58,762 nucleotides of DNA from Verrucomicrobiia bacterium (GTDB lineage: Bacteria > Verrucomicrobiota > Verrucomicrobiia > Limisphaerales > DSYF01), in NCBI GenBank assembly GCA_035765895.1, contig DASTWL010000064.1:1-58762 (forward strand), written 5' to 3'. Position numbers and translations under genes: made by a program. A model generated the notes under the pieces. The model saw only the letters and a program-made list of their open reading frames with translations, ran no database searches and was not told where the DNA came from. The first letter of the stretch is position 1. Each line of letters starts with the position of its first letter. Of this stretch, positions 14,212 to 20,365 are shown piece after piece.

Positions 14212-16383
14212 TCAACGAGCGTAGCGGCGGATGGCCATCTGCCACCAGACCGCCAGCGTCTGGTTGGGGCGCATCCACACCTGCCGGTGCAGCCAGGACA
14301 TGGTGGGGGGATCGGCCAGCAGGCGCATCTTGTCGCTGGCGGGCAAGGCCGCCGGGCCTTGGGCGAGCAGTTTCTCCGCGAGTGTTTGCATCTCGGCCGG
14401 CGGACGGTTGAGCTGGTTCATCTGCTCTGCGTAAACCGGATTCAAACGCTTTTCCCGCAGCAACGACACGTGGATGGCGTTGAGATAGGGATCGAGCACG
14501 GCATCGGCGATGCCGGAGTTGGCAGGGCGCGGATTGAGGGCACCCTCCGCCTGCAGTTTCCACAGCCGCTCGCGCAGCAGGGCGATCTCCTCCGGCGGAT
14601 GCGTTTCCTCCGGCGTGACGAAAAGCCCGAGGTCGCCCGCGCGCCGGCCGAGGGTGCTGCGATTGGTCAACACGCTGAGCGGCACGGCCAGCAGCATGCC
14701 GGCCAGCACGGGTGAGAACCACCAGAACACGCCGGGATCCAGCCGGACGACGAGCGTCCCCCACACCAGGGCAATCAGCATGTGCCAGCGGTGGCAGCGC
14801 AAGGCGTAACGCCAGGTGGTGCCGTCCGCCCCGCGGTTTTGCGCGCCCCAGTTGACGCCCATGCCAAGCAGGATGGTGATGACGAATTCGGTGTGCCACA
14901 GCATCTGCAACGGCGCGTGCAGCGTGGAGAACAGCGTTTCGACAACCGCGCTGGCGGTGACCTTGAGCAAACCACCAAAGGCCCGGCGTCTCTCCTTGTC
15001 CAGGGCCAGTTCGACGATGGCGAGGATTTTGGGCAGGAACAGTGCGGCCATGCAGATTGAGAAAATCAAAAAGGCGTGCGCCGTCGGGTTGAGCCCGCCG
15101 AGCCAGTAGGATTGCACGGTGATGTCGCTCAGGTCGGACATGACCTTGGACCAGCGAATCCAGCAAAACGTCAGCATGAAGGCCAGCCAGAGCGGACTGC
15201 TGAGGTAGCCGAAAATACCCAGCGTCAGGTGAATGCGGCTCCCGTTGCGCAGCCCGCGGGCGAACAGGACCAGGGCATGTTGCAGGTTGCCCTGGCACCA
15301 GCGCCGGTCGCGTTGCGCGCTTTCAATCAGGCCCTGCGGCCCCTCTTCGTAGCTGCCTTCGAGATCGTAGGCGAACCAGACGCGCCAGTTCTCCTTCAGC
15401 ATCAGGGCGGCCTCCACGAAGTCATGACTCAGAATCTGCCCGCCAAAGGGTTTGCGTCCCGGCAGGTGGGGCAGGTCGCAGAACTGCATGAACGGCTCGG
15501 TGCGGATAATGGCGTTGTGGCCCCAGTAATTGCCCGTGCTCAACGTCCAGTAGTTCAGCCCGGCAATGAACACCGGCGCGTAGAGGCGGTTCGCAAATTG
15601 TTGGATGCGGCCGAAGAGCGATTCGGCGTTCACCAGCGCCGGGACGGTTTGAATCAGGCCGACCGTGGGATTCGCCTCCATCATCTGAACAAGCCGGACA
15701 ATCGTCCCGCCCTGCATGAGGCTGTCCGCATCGAAACAGATGAAATAGCGGTAACGTCGTCCCCAGGCGTTCAAAAAGTCGCGCACGTTGCCGCTTTTCT
15801 TGCCCTCGTTGTTCAACCGCCGCCGGTAGTGGATGCGGCCCAGCGCGCCGAGGTCACGGACGAGTTCCAGCCAGCGGCGTTCCTCCTCGATCCACTTGTC
15901 CGGATCCGTCGAGTCGCTCAGCACGAAAAAATCGAAACGTTCGAGCTGGCTGGTCGCCCGGAGGGACTCGTAGGTGGCACGGATGCCCTCGTAAACCCGC
16001 GGCACGTCCTCGTTGTAAATCGGGACAATGATCGCCGTGCTGGTGTCGGCAATGGGCTGGCGCTGGTAATCGGCGAAGGCCGTGATGCGCGCCCGGTCCC
16101 CGAACACGCGCAACAGGAACCCGAAGATGCCGTGCATGCACCCGATGGACACGAGGAGAAACAGGATGATGAACAGCACCAGCAGGAGGGTGCGCGAGGT
16201 GGACCAGCCCGTCCGCCAGAGCAAATCGGCGAACATCAGGGAAACCACGCCGGTCAGCAGCACCGCGCAGGAGTAAAACAAAAAGACGCGCATTCCCCGA
16301 CGCAGCACGGGGAGATTCACGATGACCGGCCCGGGGTCCGGGCCGGCCGGCGCCGTGTTGGGGTGGGAGCGCGCGGTGGACAT
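14212..16383 (-). CDS. opgH: Glucans biosynthesis glucosyltransferase H
   Basis: Inner-membrane family 2 glycosyltransferase that polymerises and exports the beta-glucan backbone of osmoregulated periplasmic glucans. Two membrane segments (about residues 30-55 and 64-90) precede the cytoplasmic catalytic domain, with AIIVPIYNEDVPRVYEG, VLSDSTDPDKWIEEE, YFICFDADSLMQGG (DAD 218-220) and QRDRRWCQGNLQH. Several membrane helices follow. At 723 residues it is about 120 shorter than E. coli OpgH; the missing part is the long N-terminal cytoplasmic region. It starts 1 bp after the stop of a small membrane-protein gene that is coupled to opgG. Confidence 0.95.
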   Translation of the reverse strand: MSTARSHPNTAPAGPDPGPVIVNLPVLRRGMRVFLFYSCAVLLTGVVSLMFADLLWRTGWSTSRTLLLVLFIILFLLVSIGCMHGIFGFLLRVFGDRARITAFADYQRQPIADTSTAIIVPIYNEDVPRVYEGIRATYESLRATSQLERFDFFVLSDSTDPDKWIEEERRWLELVRDLGALGRIHYRRRLNNEGKKSGNVRDFLNAWGRRYRYFICFDADSLMQGGTIVRLVQMMEANPTVGLIQTVPALVNAESLFGRIQQFANRLYAPVFIAGLNYWTLSTGNYWGHNAIIRTEPFMQFCDLPHLPGRKPFGGQILSHDFVEAALMLKENWRVWFAYDLEGSYEEGPQGLIESAQRDRRWCQGNLQHALVLFARGLRNGSRIHLTLGIFGYLSSPLWLAFMLTFCWIRWSKVMSDLSDITVQSYWLGGLNPTAHAFLIFSICMAALFLPKILAIVELALDKERRRAFGGLLKVTASAVVETLFSTLHAPLQMLWHTEFVITILLGMGVNWGAQNRGADGTTWRYALRCHRWHMLIALVWGTLVVRLDPGVFWWFSPVLAGMLLAVPLSVLTNRSTLGRRAGDLGLFVTPEETHPPEEIALLRERLWKLQAEGALNPRPANSGIADAVLDPYLNAIHVSLLREKRLNPVYAEQMNQLNRPPAEMQTLAEKLLAQGPAALPASDKMRLLADPPTMSWLHRQVWMRPNQTLAVWWQMAIRRYAR

Positions 16384-16384
16384 T

Positions 16385-16966
16385 TCAACGATGCGTCAGG
16401 ACAAACAGGGCGATGAGCAGGGCGGCAAAAAGAATCCAGATGCCGATCATTTTCGAATAGCGCACCTTGCGGATGCTCGAAAGGGTGGTGATCGGACCGA
16501 GGTGCAGCGGGCGGGGCGCCATTTGCGACAGTTGAAAGTCCGGTCCGGCGCGCAAATAGGCGTCGCGCATGGCCCGGACGAATTCATCCGGCCAGGGGCC
16601 GGGCCGGAGAAACTGGTCCTGCCATTTGCCCGGCATGTCCGCCAGCAGCAGCGCCAGCCGGCCGCGCGTGGAAAGCATCTGGTCGCGGTTGGTCGGCGGC
16701 TCGTGCAATACCTCGGCGAACCATTCGGTGACGACGTGGTCCATTTCCTCCGCCGCCAGTTCGGAGGCGGCGCGTTGCGGGTTGGCGGGCGCCCGCCGGA
16801 GCGCGCGTTCAATCACGAGCGCCACGAGCTGGCCCAGCAGCACCTTGTTGCGAATGCGCAGCGCATTGAAGTAGCTTTCCACCTTCGCATACGCGGCGTT
16901 CCACTCCTCCAACGGACGCCCGGCCAGCTTGCCGGGCAACTCGGTCCAACCCAGGGTGGGGTTCAT
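16385..16966 (-). CDS. Unrecognised membrane-anchored protein between opgG and opgH
   Basis: 193 residues from ATG 16966, whose ATGA overlaps the opgG stop and which is preceded by GGAG at 6 nt; an in-frame ATG at 16990 is less likely. The N-terminal 170 residues are predicted soluble and helical (WNAAYAKVESYFNALRIRN, LVALVIERALRRAP), and a single hydrophobic segment, IGIWILFAALLIALFVL, ends the chain. I do not recognise the family. Tight coupling on both sides suggests a role in glucan synthesis. It has about the size of the cytoplasmic N-terminal region that this OpgH lacks relative to E. coli, so it may act as an OpgH partner; that is inference. Confidence 0.85.
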   Translation of the reverse strand: MNPTLGWTELPGKLAGRPLEEWNAAYAKVESYFNALRIRNKVLLGQLVALVIERALRRAPANPQRAASELAAEEMDHVVTEWFAEVLHEPPTNRDQMLSTRGRLALLLADMPGKWQDQFLRPGPWPDEFVRAMRDAYLRAGPDFQLSQMAPRPLHLGPITTLSSIRKVRYSKMIGIWILFAALLIALFVLTHR

Positions 16967-18528
16967 GGCGGACTCCACAAATAGGTCCACGTTTCACTGA
17001 CAGTTTCACTGCCCTTCTTGAGCGTGCAGCGCAGGTCAACCGGGTCGGTGTTGCCCTGCTTGGGCTGGAGCTTCAGCACGACGCGCCACGACCCGTCGGA
17101 TGGATTCCGGAAGATGAGATTGTCGGTCAACGCGCCGTTGGGACTGCAACTGGCGATGGACTGGGGCGGGTCCGCCGCCGTGAACGTGTCGAGCTTTGGT
17201 CCCTTGAAATCAATGCAGATTTCGCGCCGGCTGGGTTCCCGTCCATCGGCGCCGATGCGGGTCGCGGTCACGATGTTTTCGGACAGGTGCCGGTCCGTCT
17301 CGCGCGTCCAGAACATCGTGTAGCCGAAACGATACGGTTGCAGCGGCGCGGGTTTGTCCTTGGGATCGAAGAACGCCACGATGTTGTCGAGTCCTTCGTA
17401 AGTGGTGCTGAGTTCCACCAGGTGGATGTCGCCTTCGCTCCAGTTGCCGCGCGGCTCGATCCAGACGCTGGGCACGCGGTGGTAGTAATTGAAGATGTCC
17501 TGGTAGTGGTCGAAGTTGCGGTCTCGCTGCAACAGGCCGTAGCCGCGCACGCCCTTGGTGCTGAACTTTTGATGCCGCATGACGCTGGCATTGTTCAACG
17601 GGCGCCACAGCACTTCACCGTTGTCCATGCGGATGAGCAGGCCGTCGCTGTCGTGCACCTCCGGGCGGTAGTCGTCAAACTTGCGTTCCGAGTTTTCGCC
17701 AAACCAGAACATGCTCGTCAGCGGCGCGAGGCCGAGGGTTTTGAGCGGTTTGCGTTCGGGATTGACGGCCGCAATCGTGTTCGTCTCCCGCAGGTAAAGC
17801 ACCGCTTCCACGTCGGCGATGGTGGTTTCGCCCGGTTGGATGGTGAAGCTGTAGGCGCCCGCACAACTGACGCTGTCCAAAATCGCATAGAGCCGCAGGC
17901 GGTCATCATCCTTGTGCGGTTTGCCGAGCCACCAATCCGTGAAGATGGGGAACTCCTCGGGCCGGTCCGTCTCGCCGCAGTCCAAGGCCAGTCCGCGCGC
18001 GGATTGACCGTAGCGCTGGTTCTTGCCGAGCAGCCGAAAGTAGCTGGCGCCGAGAAAGGCGCCGAGTTCGTCGAACTGGTCGGGCTGGTTCAATGCATAG
18101 AGCAGCCGGAAGCCCGCGTAGCCCGTGTTGGCGGGAATTTTCCGTCCCAGATGCGTGTCACCGTAATCAAAAAATTCCTGCACAAAGCGGATGGGTTGGG
18201 AATGCGTGAGGGTGAATTCGGTAACATGCACCGGCTCCTGATAGAGGTAGCCGGGATGGAAAAATTCCACCCGGAACGGCAGATCCTCGGCGGTCCAAAG
18301 CGCCATCTCGCGCCGAAAGCGGATTTCCCGGTATTTGTCGTAGTTCAGATTGTCCTGCTTCAACACGTCCGGCAGATCGGCGCGCGGGGAATGGAAAGGT
18401 TTGCGGGCGCGTTCCTCCGCCTGCCGGGCGACATATTCAAAATTGATCTCCGCCGCCGGCGTCGGAAGAACCAGATGGACCTGCAGGAATGCAAGAACGG
18501 CCAGCGTCAGTGTGCCCAATCTCCTCAT
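16963..18528 (-). CDS. opgG: Periplasmic glucans biosynthesis protein OpgG
   Basis: Periplasmic protein needed for the structure of osmoregulated periplasmic glucans. ATG 18528 gives a signal peptide (MRRLGTLTLAVLAFLQ...PTPAAE), which is why it was preferred over ATG 18570. Family landmarks are FEYVARQAEERARKPF, NYDKYREIRFR, FFHPGYLYQEPV, LTSMFWFGENSERKFDDYRPEVHDSDGL (split as LTSMFWFGE and YRPEVHDSDG) and the RDRNFDHYQD segment. 521 residues, normal. First gene of opgG-X-opgH; it is divergent from pgsA across 178 bp in which I see no convincing promoter. Confidence 0.95.
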   Translation of the reverse strand: MRRLGTLTLAVLAFLQVHLVLPTPAAEINFEYVARQAEERARKPFHSPRADLPDVLKQDNLNYDKYREIRFRREMALWTAEDLPFRVEFFHPGYLYQEPVHVTEFTLTHSQPIRFVQEFFDYGDTHLGRKIPANTGYAGFRLLYALNQPDQFDELGAFLGASYFRLLGKNQRYGQSARGLALDCGETDRPEEFPIFTDWWLGKPHKDDDRLRLYAILDSVSCAGAYSFTIQPGETTIADVEAVLYLRETNTIAAVNPERKPLKTLGLAPLTSMFWFGENSERKFDDYRPEVHDSDGLLIRMDNGEVLWRPLNNASVMRHQKFSTKGVRGYGLLQRDRNFDHYQDIFNYYHRVPSVWIEPRGNWSEGDIHLVELSTTYEGLDNIVAFFDPKDKPAPLQPYRFGYTMFWTRETDRHLSENIVTATRIGADGREPSRREICIDFKGPKLDTFTAADPPQSIASCSPNGALTDNLIFRNPSDGSWRVVLKLQPKQGNTDPVDLRCTLKKGSETVSETWTYLWSPP

Positions 18529-18706: not shown

Positions 18707-19315
18707 ATGACCACGGCCAATAAAGTCACCATTTTGCGCATTCTGCTGGTGCCGTTCTTCGTGGTGGAAGTGCTTTACTTCGTGGGCACGGGCGACGAAA
18801 TCCACCGCCTGCTGGCGTTGATTTCGTTCGCCGTGGCCTCGGTGTGCGATGGCGTTGATGGTTACATCGCGCGTCACTACAATCAGAAGAGCGAGCTGGG
18901 CGCCATATTGGATCCACTGGCGGACAAATTGTTGCTCGTCAGCGGCGTGGTGGTGTTGAGCTTCGATCACACGCCGCGGCTGGACCGGGTTCCCCTGTGG
19001 TTGACCGGCACCATCATCGGCCGCGATGTCGTTCTGCTGCTGGGGCTGATTGTGATTTACATGACGGTGGGCAAGGTGACTGTGCGACCGCGGATTCTCG
19101 GGAAGGTGGCCACGGTGTTTCAAATGGCCACGGTCTTGTGGATCTTGCTGCGCTGGCCGCCGGCGGCGTTGACATACATCGTGATGGGCGCGGCGGCGTG
19201 CACGGGCATCTCGGGAATTTGGTATGTGTTGGACGGCATGAAACAATTGGGCGCGCATCCCACCAGCAGCCCGACCGTCAAAAAGTCAGCGGCACCGCCG
19301 AATGGTGAAGCGTGA
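18707..19315 (+). CDS. pgsA: CDP-diacylglycerol-glycerol-3-phosphate 3-phosphatidyltransferase
   Basis: Integral membrane CDP-alcohol phosphatidyltransferase making phosphatidylglycerol phosphate. The signature D-G-x-x-D-G-x(2)-A-R-x(8)-G-x(3)-D-x(3)-D is complete in CDGVDGYIARHY and ELGAILDPLADK. NKVTILRILLVPFFV is the usual N terminus and four to five further hydrophobic segments follow. ATG 18707 is preceded by AGGTGG, so it is chosen over GTG 18680. 202 residues. The related enzymes Pss and cardiolipin synthase share the signature; length and N terminus favour PgsA. Confidence 0.88.
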   Translation: MTTANKVTILRILLVPFFVVEVLYFVGTGDEIHRLLALISFAVASVCDGVDGYIARHYNQKSELGAILDPLADKLLLVSGVVVLSFDHTPRLDRVPLWLTGTIIGRDVVLLLGLIVIYMTVGKVTVRPRILGKVATVFQMATVLWILLRWPPAALTYIVMGAAACTGISGIWYVLDGMKQLGAHPTSSPTVKKSAAPPNGEA

Positions 19316-19338
19316 CGAGCCGTCGTGGATTTCCTTTT

Positions 19339-19812
19339 ATGGCAAAAGAACTCGAACTGAAACTCAAGGAAGGCGACCGGGCGCCCGCTTTTGTGGCGGC
19401 GACCAACGGCGGCGGCAAAGTTTCCCTGGCCGACTTCAAGGGCAAACACGTCATTCTCTATTTTTACCCGAAGGACGATACGCCCGGCTGCACCAAGGAG
19501 GCCTGTGCCTTCCGCGATGGTTTTGCCGCGTTCAAAAAGAAAGGCGCCGTGGTGCTGGGCGTCAGCACCGATCCGGTGAAGTCCCACGACAAGTTCGTGG
19601 AAAAGTTCCAACTGCCGTTCACGCTGCTGGCGGACGAAGACAAGGCCATCGTGCAAACCTACGGCGTTTGGGGCGAGAAAAGTTTCATGGGCCGCAAGTA
19701 TCTCGGCACGCACCGGGTGACCTTTTTGATTGGTCCCGACGGGGTGATTAAAAAGATCTGGCCCCAGGTGAAGCCGGAAGCGCACGCGGCCGAAGTGTTG
19801 GCGGCCATTTGA
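19339..19812 (+). CDS. bcp: Thioredoxin-dependent thiol peroxidase, Bcp/PrxQ type
   Basis: Peroxiredoxin reducing hydroperoxides. YFYPKDDTPGCTKEACAFRD carries peroxidatic Cys51 and resolving Cys56, the five-residue spacing typical of atypical two-cysteine PrxQ. VVLGVSTDPVKSHDKFVEKF and LLADEDKAIVQTYGVWGEK follow. 157 residues from ATG 19339; GTG 19312 overlapping the pgsA stop is an alternative. A second, different peroxiredoxin gene follows after 73 bp. Confidence 0.93.
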   Translation: MAKELELKLKEGDRAPAFVAATNGGGKVSLADFKGKHVILYFYPKDDTPGCTKEACAFRDGFAAFKKKGAVVLGVSTDPVKSHDKFVEKFQLPFTLLADEDKAIVQTYGVWGEKSFMGRKYLGTHRVTFLIGPDGVIKKIWPQVKPEAHAAEVLAAI

Positions 19813-19885
19813 CACGGGGCCCGCAAGCCGTTAACAATGCCCGCTCGTTCATCAATCCAGAACATTCAAAAAAGAAACAAGCATT

Positions 19886-20365
19886 ATGGCAATCGCAGTC
19901 GGCAGCAAAGCTCCTGATTTCAACCTCAAGTCCAAGAACGCTTCCGGCGTCGCCGAGGTCAAACTCAGCACCAACCAGGGCAAGAAGAACACCGTCATCC
20001 TTTTCTTCCCGCTCGCGTTCACCAGCGTCTGCACCAGCGAAATGTGCGACGTTACCTCGGGGCTTTCCGCCTACGCTCAGCTGGGTGCGGACGTCATCGG
20101 GATCAGTGTTGACAGTCCGTTTGCGCAGGAAGCCTGGGCGAAGCAGAACAACATCGCCATCACGCTGGCCAGCGATCTGAACAAGACCACGGCCAAGGCC
20201 TATGGCGTTTTGCTGGATGACCTGCTCGGTTTTGGCGCGACCGCCGCCCGCGCCGCCTTCGTGGTGGACAAGAACGGGGTTGTGCAATACGCCGAACAGA
20301 CGCCCACGCCGAAGGATTTGCCGAACTTCAACGCCATCAAAGACGTGCTCGCGAAGCTCAAGTAA
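19886..20365 (+). CDS. Peroxiredoxin, AhpC/TSA family
   Basis: 159-residue redoxin-fold peroxidase distinct from the preceding Bcp. FFPLAFTSVCTSEMCDV carries the peroxidatic Cys49 in the P-x(3)-T-x(2)-C motif, with a second Cys at 54. VIGISVDSPFAQEAWAKQN and AAFVVDKNGVVQYAE follow. It resembles single-domain AhpE/PrxQ-like enzymes rather than the longer AhpC. Ends in a clear terminator (20389-20420). The bcp-Prx pairing suggests a small oxidative-stress module, but no regulator gene is adjacent. Confidence 0.92.
   Translation: MAIAVGSKAPDFNLKSKNASGVAEVKLSTNQGKKNTVILFFPLAFTSVCTSEMCDVTSGLSAYAQLGADVIGISVDSPFAQEAWAKQNNIAITLASDLNKTTAKAYGVLLDDLLGFGATAARAAFVVDKNGVVQYAEQTPTPKDLPNFNAIKDVLAKLK

Follow-up and report, generated by a model that had tools for sequence, protein, structure and literature searches.

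In Rhodobacter sphaeroides, the operon opgGIH-opgC contains a co-directional gene, opgI, between opgG and opgH, and a co-directional gene occupies this position at the locus described here as well. Work by Cogez from 2002 is said to have found opgI necessary for synthesis of the backbone of osmoregulated periplasmic glucans (OPGs). According to another report, opgI and opgH of R. sphaeroides together complement an opgH deletion in E. coli (PMC10514313). In E. coli, the cytoplasmic N-terminal domain of OpgH comprises 138 residues. Hill and colleagues attached residues 83–101 to thioredoxin and reported that this fusion was enough to inhibit division and that it co-localised with FtsZ in 82% (169/205) of the cells, whereas alanine substitutions or deletion of 83–101 had no significant effect on the inhibition exerted by the whole N-terminal domain (PMC3723540). 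This paper counts 848 residues for OpgH and 18 for the peptide, and the OpgH sequence fetched by us has 847, so that the numbering may differ by one. For Caulobacter, which is without opgG, OpgH has been studied with AlphaFold models (PMC11389396). In the literature searched, which left most subscription papers outside, we found no description of the gene family treated below and no equation of it with the OpgH N-terminus.

A gene between opgG and opgH

The window, i.e., the whole stretch of 58,762 nucleotides that was analysed, carries the following features:

16963..18528, minus strand: opgG (MdoG), the upstream gene (PF04349, E 2.4e-169)
16385..16966, minus strand: gene of a putative tail-anchored protein of 193 aa with homologues (ATG at 16966, TGA ending at 16385)
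16547..16912, minus strand: predicted helical soluble part, residues 19-140 (AlphaFold model, mean pLDDT 72.6, pTM 0.56)
16493..16546, minus strand: conserved element, residues 141-158, GPDFQLSQMAPRPLHLGP (P142, M149, P151; row conservation and alignment to the OpgH N-terminus)
16397..16456, minus strand: predicted single C-terminal transmembrane helix, about residues 171-190 (hydropathy; AlphaFold helix 167-192)
14212..16383, minus strand: opgH (glucosyltransferase), the downstream gene, of the type with a short N-terminus (NF003958, 807.5 bits, cut-off 419)

The opgG stop and the start of the 193-aa gene, hereafter called middle gene, share a 4-bp ATGA overlap (16963-16966), and one base (16384) separates its end from the opgH start at 16383; an in-frame GTG upstream, at 16990, is an alternative start which would give 201 aa. 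The Kyte-Doolittle profile of the 193-aa protein peaks at 2.74 (hydropathy window from residue 173), and the best value before residue 150 is 1.07. Since the sole hydrophobic segment is C-terminal and none occurs earlier, the protein is probably tail-anchored with a cytoplasmic soluble part. Coordinates and hydropathy thus agree with an initial annotation of the sequence, which had described an unrecognised protein of 193 residues with a single helix and junctions of 4 bp and 1 bp. As to its being unrecognised, no Pfam or NCBIfam family was found at curated cut-offs, and 59 family members compared with Pfam yielded no family, with one chance match at E 0.007. In OpgH of the window, the first hydropathy window above 1.6 starts at residue 30, as against the 138-residue domain of E. 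coli; the E. coli-type N-terminal part is therefore absent, as had likewise been proposed. The NCBIfam OpgH model matched here, NF003958, has 704 positions, and that of the E. coli type, NF003955, has 855.

When the window's middle gene was compared with those of four relatives, the differences fell mainly on third codon positions (e.g., 51/19/99 for the three positions), which clearly indicates a coding gene under protein-level selection. An AlphaFold model of the protein from 30 sequences consists of helices (19-34, 41-61, 67-87, 100-109, 113-120, 127-140) and the membrane helix (167-192). Residues 146–158, which form most of the conserved element, have a pLDDT below 50 from a shallow alignment. 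Given this low model confidence and the strong conservation, the prediction fits an element that would fold on a partner. A Foldseek search of the model against the PDB gave no usable match (best E 1.0), and no sequence relative of the middle protein or of the window's OpgH (E 0.01) was found in the PDB.

Beside rho, the window also contains a tandem of two peroxiredoxin genes of the AhpC/TSA type (19312-20362).

Occurrence of the middle gene with OpgG and OpgH

Among 97 relatives searched, the window's genome included, 19 gave a match for the middle gene, and it is present in 17 of the 18 with an OpgH over the cut-off. The exception is G056, whose OpgH is distant (31% identity) and which lacks both OpgG and the middle gene. 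G093 carries opgG and the middle gene together on a short contig and gave no match for OpgH. In G060 and G061, the matches to OpgH are partial and fall short of the cut-off, and the middle gene is missing; G060 has contig-end pieces of both OpgH and OpgG. A broken assembly is likely behind the pattern of the latter two genomes. One of the 19 matches, in G016 (E 0.009), was dropped as probably due to chance, as no opg genes are nearby.

The search was extended to 387 genomes of Verrucomicrobiota, 78 of which have OpgH over the cut-off. A family profile (A2) found the middle gene in 72 of these 78 and in 0/309 genomes without such an OpgH, the best eight first-look candidates being scored for most genomes. 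The profile was built partly from loci of the same 387 genomes, which cannot create absence elsewhere. The association with OpgH has a Fisher p of 9e-72, a value which, due to the kinship of the genomes, overstates independence. One of the 309, G194, contains at a contig edge a piece of OpgH that scores below the cut-off, and lacks both OpgG and the middle gene. The six remaining OpgH genomes (G138, G150, G168, G248, G333, G336) have a shorter ORF in the same slot, its length being 112–138 aa according to which start is assumed. OpgG exceeds its cut-off in 80/387 genomes, namely the same 78 and two with weak partial matches (E about 6e-7 and 9e-7).

Rather than lying apart from opgGH in most genomes, an outcome that the initial annotation had named as evidence against its reading, the middle gene or the short ORF is found directly upstream of opgH, with a gap of at most 140 bp, at 76 of 79 OpgH loci including that of the window (70 by profile, 6 by short ORF). 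At the other three (G045, G108, G214), the middle gene follows opgG away from opgH. The same holds for G482-G485, with opgH elsewhere; conversely, in G283, G286, G295, G330 and the second copy of G195, it stands by opgH without opgG. As these split arrangements run both ways, the middle gene is tied to both opgG and opgH. A similar picture emerges from 35 opgH loci of a genome collection: the middle gene lies upstream of opgH in 29, closer than 150 bp in 28 of them and at 689 bp in one (L035). The remaining six also have opgG and the middle gene side by side, in four of them at another place in the genome and in two, where opgH begins at the end of a contig, on a different contig. No fusion of the middle protein to OpgH was seen by eye in the frames ahead of opgH at eight loci of Verrucomicrobiota (L105, L129, L134, L156, L170, L171, L173, L174), and no relative of OpgH turned up when viral contigs were scanned with two patterns.

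In four of the short-ORF genomes, which belong to one genus (G138, G150, G168 and G248; loci L103, L107, L106 and L108), two opgG genes in a row are followed by the short ORF and opgH, and the ORF has no obvious membrane helix.

The conserved element and the N-terminus of OpgH

Of the 115 rows in the family alignment, four were admitted by slot; similarity contributed the other 111, all distinct sequences and among them that of the window. Just ahead of the membrane helix, P142 is conserved in 115/115 rows, M149 in 111/115, P151 in 102/115 and R152 in 93/115; the strict pattern P-x6-M-x-P occurs in 102/115 members, that of the window among them, and is absent from thirteen. An HMM of the 111 sequences was used to search 21 opgH loci of other phyla, translated into 2,402 frames from stop to stop, together with ten divergent ORFs (middle or short) of Verrucomicrobiota. 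Four divergent members from Verrucomicrobiota headed the list (E 3e-11 or better). Among the outside frames, the ORF between opgG and opgH of Leptospira kobayashii (E 0.053) and two OpgH of Cupriavidus (0.19, 0.43) ranked highest. Next came the short ORF L175 (1.1) and an unrelated frame (1.4), then OpgH of E. coli (2.5), a further two unrelated frames (4.2, 4.4) and OpgH of Salmonella (5.2). A third OpgH of Cupriavidus reached an E of only about 12, and the segments from Leptospira biflexa, Mitsuaria and alphaproteobacteria were not among the matches listed (to E about 26). All four best OpgH matches lie at the N-terminal element and use model positions from 135/136 to 160–172, the aligned stretches being 123–156 in C. 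metallidurans OpgH and 77–102 in E. coli OpgH.

Of 500 shuffles each, the number reaching the score of the actual sequence was 0 for L. kobayashii and Cupriavidus, 1 for E. coli and L175, and 4 for Mitsuaria. The L. biflexa ORF is marginal with 12, a count not far from that of the lowest negative control, Methylosinus with 22 (the other controls gave 42, 81, 174, 271 and 347). Azospirillum (58), Bradyrhizobium (199 and 225), the Sulfitobacter ORF (295) and Sphingomonas (500) are not significant, and the short ORFs L103, L106 and L176 do not match the profile either (352, 235 and 105 shuffles as good).

In a comparison of profiles by hhalign, the family profile aligned with six OpgH N-termini (A3) at a score of 36.2 (E 4.4e-5, probability 69%), exceeding the controls, since 0/100 column shuffles scored above 17.9. 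An alignment of full-length OpgH gave its best match at this N-terminal site again, with a score of 34.0 and a probability of 24%. Among 150 frames drawn at random, the highest score (26.7) was that of the L. kobayashii frame itself, included by chance, and the next was 17.4. Single sequences scored 32.2 (Cupriavidus N-terminus), 26.0 (L. kobayashii), 22.6 (E. coli N-terminus) and 12.3 (L. biflexa), compared with 13.0 and 12.3 for OpgH C-terminal controls. The alignment takes in the element and its flanks, and the helical part, to which residues 1-75 of E. coli OpgH would correspond, lies outside it. Single-sequence E-values are weak, and the similarity supports a kinship with the OpgH N-terminus by way of a short element.

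The pattern P-x6-M-x-P takes its definition from the Verrucomicrobial sequences. It is present in 8/8 OpgH N-tails fetched (E. coli, Salmonella, three Cupriavidus, Mitsuaria, two Bradyrhizobium), perhaps amounting to four independent lineages, and occurs 27 times in the 262,227 residues of all frames, these eight tails included. Composition-preserving shuffling yields the pattern by chance in 0.7–4.6% of cases per tail (six tails tested). Both Bradyrhizobium tails carry it, yet do not score with the profile; the Mitsuaria tail is only about 60 residues long, and the element is what remains of it. In the alignment of six N-termini, 5/10 invariant columns (P127, R131, M134, P136, W139) cluster at the element. 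In a small sample of six OpgH N-tails from loci with OpgG absent or not directly upstream, no element was found, and the Rhizobium locus L121 was excluded for its unclear OpgH start. The strict pattern is also absent from the segments of Sphingomonas, Sulfitobacter, Qingshengfaniella, Azospirillum and both Leptospira species.

Comparable ORFs in the same slot exist outside the phylum. On plasmids of L. biflexa (L080:3597-3986) and L. kobayashii (L087:2944-3312), a small ORF annotated as hypothetical stands between opgG/D and opgH. Like the middle protein, these ORFs have a C-terminal hydrophobic stretch and an element, SMVP, but they are shorter (129 and 122 aa), belong to another phylum and are without the leading proline. 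Among outside sequences, the ORF of L. kobayashii matches best and scores clearly, but the similarity is weak overall: the family profile against the Leptospira pair (A4) scored 23.4 (probability 9%, shuffles at most 19.7), and the pair against the OpgH N-termini had a probability of 0.8%.

In Rhodobacterales, a Sulfitobacter plasmid has the order opgG–56-aa ORF–opgH–opgC, the ORF carrying PLAMPRQTL, and a Qingshengfaniella plasmid has a 62-aa ORF with PLAMP between opgG and opgH (L081:4558-4746), which overlaps the opgG stop and is missing from the gene table. Unlike the middle protein, neither has an obvious membrane helix. The Sulfitobacter ORF does not match the family profile, but contains P-x6-M-P, expected in 3.6% of shuffles, and matches the N-terminus of OpgH model NF003962 (positions 7-40, E 0.024), at position 54 of which Sulfitobacter OpgH itself begins; the Qingshengfaniella ORF gave no match. 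Judged by this Sulfitobacter ORF in the opgI slot, and not by R. sphaeroides OpgI itself, an identity of the middle protein with OpgI finds no support; a way of working like that of OpgI is plausible.

Alphaproteobacterial segments with PLxMP, i.e., the Sulfitobacter and Qingshengfaniella ORFs, the Sphingomonas OpgH N-terminus and the Azospirillum OpgH C-terminus, look alike but were not counted, because those tested were not significant against the family profile. Within this set, PLxMPVQNL is found at the C-terminus of Azospirillum OpgH (L079) and at the N-terminus of Sphingomonas OpgH (L082), as if the peptide had changed ends.

Candidate roles of the middle protein

From its co-occurrence with OpgG and OpgH, its position next to opgH, and the profile match and pattern at the N-terminal element, we consider the middle protein to be probably a separate cytoplasmic subunit of the OPG synthase and the equivalent, in trans, of the N-terminal module that beta- and gammaproteobacteria have fused to their OpgH. 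The middle gene would be translated separately into this subunit, which its C-terminal membrane helix would hold at the inner-membrane face; there, the element P-x6-M-x-P-R-x-[LI], modelled as disordered when alone, would be presented to a partner, most likely the cytoplasmic side of OpgH, and OpgH docked in this manner would be competent to work with OpgG. Gene anatomy, the family, its co-occurrence and the shared element are observations of this analysis, and to them we add, by inference, an N-in topology, docking on OpgH (with support from the Caulobacter report, PMC11389396) and a need for the protein in glucan synthesis. E. coli OpgH-N (residues 1-138) resembles the middle protein in lying next to a membrane helix and sharing P-x6-M-x-P at the aligned place. 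However, it is fused to OpgH, whereas the middle protein is separate and has a membrane helix of its own, and its cytoplasmic location is reported (PMC3723540), that of the middle protein presumed. The split genomes in which the middle gene keeps to opgG and not to opgH count against the subunit reading, as does G060, where pieces of OpgH and OpgG came without a match for the middle gene. The initial annotation had suggested either a lost module of OpgH supplied in trans or a new subunit of the synthase. The latter fits the same evidence. The former is upheld for a core of about 25-37 residues, which aligns to the N-terminal region of beta/gamma OpgH, but not beyond the element and its flanks or by the fold search in the PDB, and "lost" presumes an order of fused and split forms that is unproven.

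A lineage-specific accessory subunit that does not descend from a common ancestor with the OpgH N-terminus, and has its element by convergence or chance, is unlikely. Such a protein would explain why only the short element aligns, and that at an hhalign probability of 69%, why the helical part was unmatched in the fold search and why the segments from Bradyrhizobium and other alphaproteobacteria are not significant with the profile; it is harder to reconcile with an element at the matching place in several lineages, with a profile score reached by none of 100 column shuffles and with the expected sequences ranking top among the outside frames. If, instead, the protein presented the FtsZ-directed peptide in trans, its main role would be control of division, coupling glucan synthesis to cell size. 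Here, E. coli 83–101 (EAKRSSMFPDPWRTNPVGR in the fetched sequence) lies within the stretch 77-102 aligned by the profile, in a search made without use of PMC3723540, which ascribes division inhibition and co-localisation with FtsZ to this peptide. Further, the window's genome has an FtsZ homologue (G000:C70:1458-2402, L217), at 225 bits below the TIGR00065 cut-off of 295. We nevertheless regard a main role of this kind as quite improbable: changes to 83–101 did not significantly alter the inhibition by the whole E. coli domain, according to the same paper, and the gene tracks OpgG and OpgH, being found in none of the 309 genomes without an OpgH over the cut-off, with FtsZ sought in one genome only.

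The genomes in which the middle gene follows opgG with opgH elsewhere would suit a protein that partners OpgG, in its export or its function, instead of OpgH, but those in which it accompanies opgH without opgG would not, and its soluble part is presumably cytoplasmic while OpgG is periplasmic, which makes this role very unlikely. An adaptor bringing acyl carrier protein to OpgH is conceivable in so far as this protein is a known factor for OPG synthesis in E. coli, its requirement reportedly being the subject, by title, of work by Therisod from 1986. As sequence evidence for it is absent and the idea is pure inference, it has hardly any probability.

With a separate synthase subunit as the preferred reading, a family unnamed in the libraries searched obtains a likely function class and a tie to OpgH, and a single short element, common across phyla, is singled out within the poorly understood OpgH N-terminus. 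Because this part is separate from the enzyme here, what the element does in glucan synthesis can be tested independently of catalysis. The reported E. coli FtsZ-directed peptide also appears in a new light, as conservation of the element with OpgG and OpgH suggests that its first role was in the synthase itself. A bolder proposal, which strikes us as rather unlikely, is that P-x6-M-x-P marks a part of glucan synthases that is both ancient and mobile, occurs fused in Proteobacteria and as a separate protein in Verrucomicrobiota and Leptospira, and also acts as the FtsZ-directed peptide; if true, the Verrucomicrobial protein would connect envelope-glucan synthesis with cell division as a free-standing link.

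Two genomes carry, besides the usual operon, second copies of the middle gene and opgH with no adjacent opgG (L129, G195:C1:1553000-1557200; L182, G053:C24:76000-82000), which possibly form a specialised synthase.
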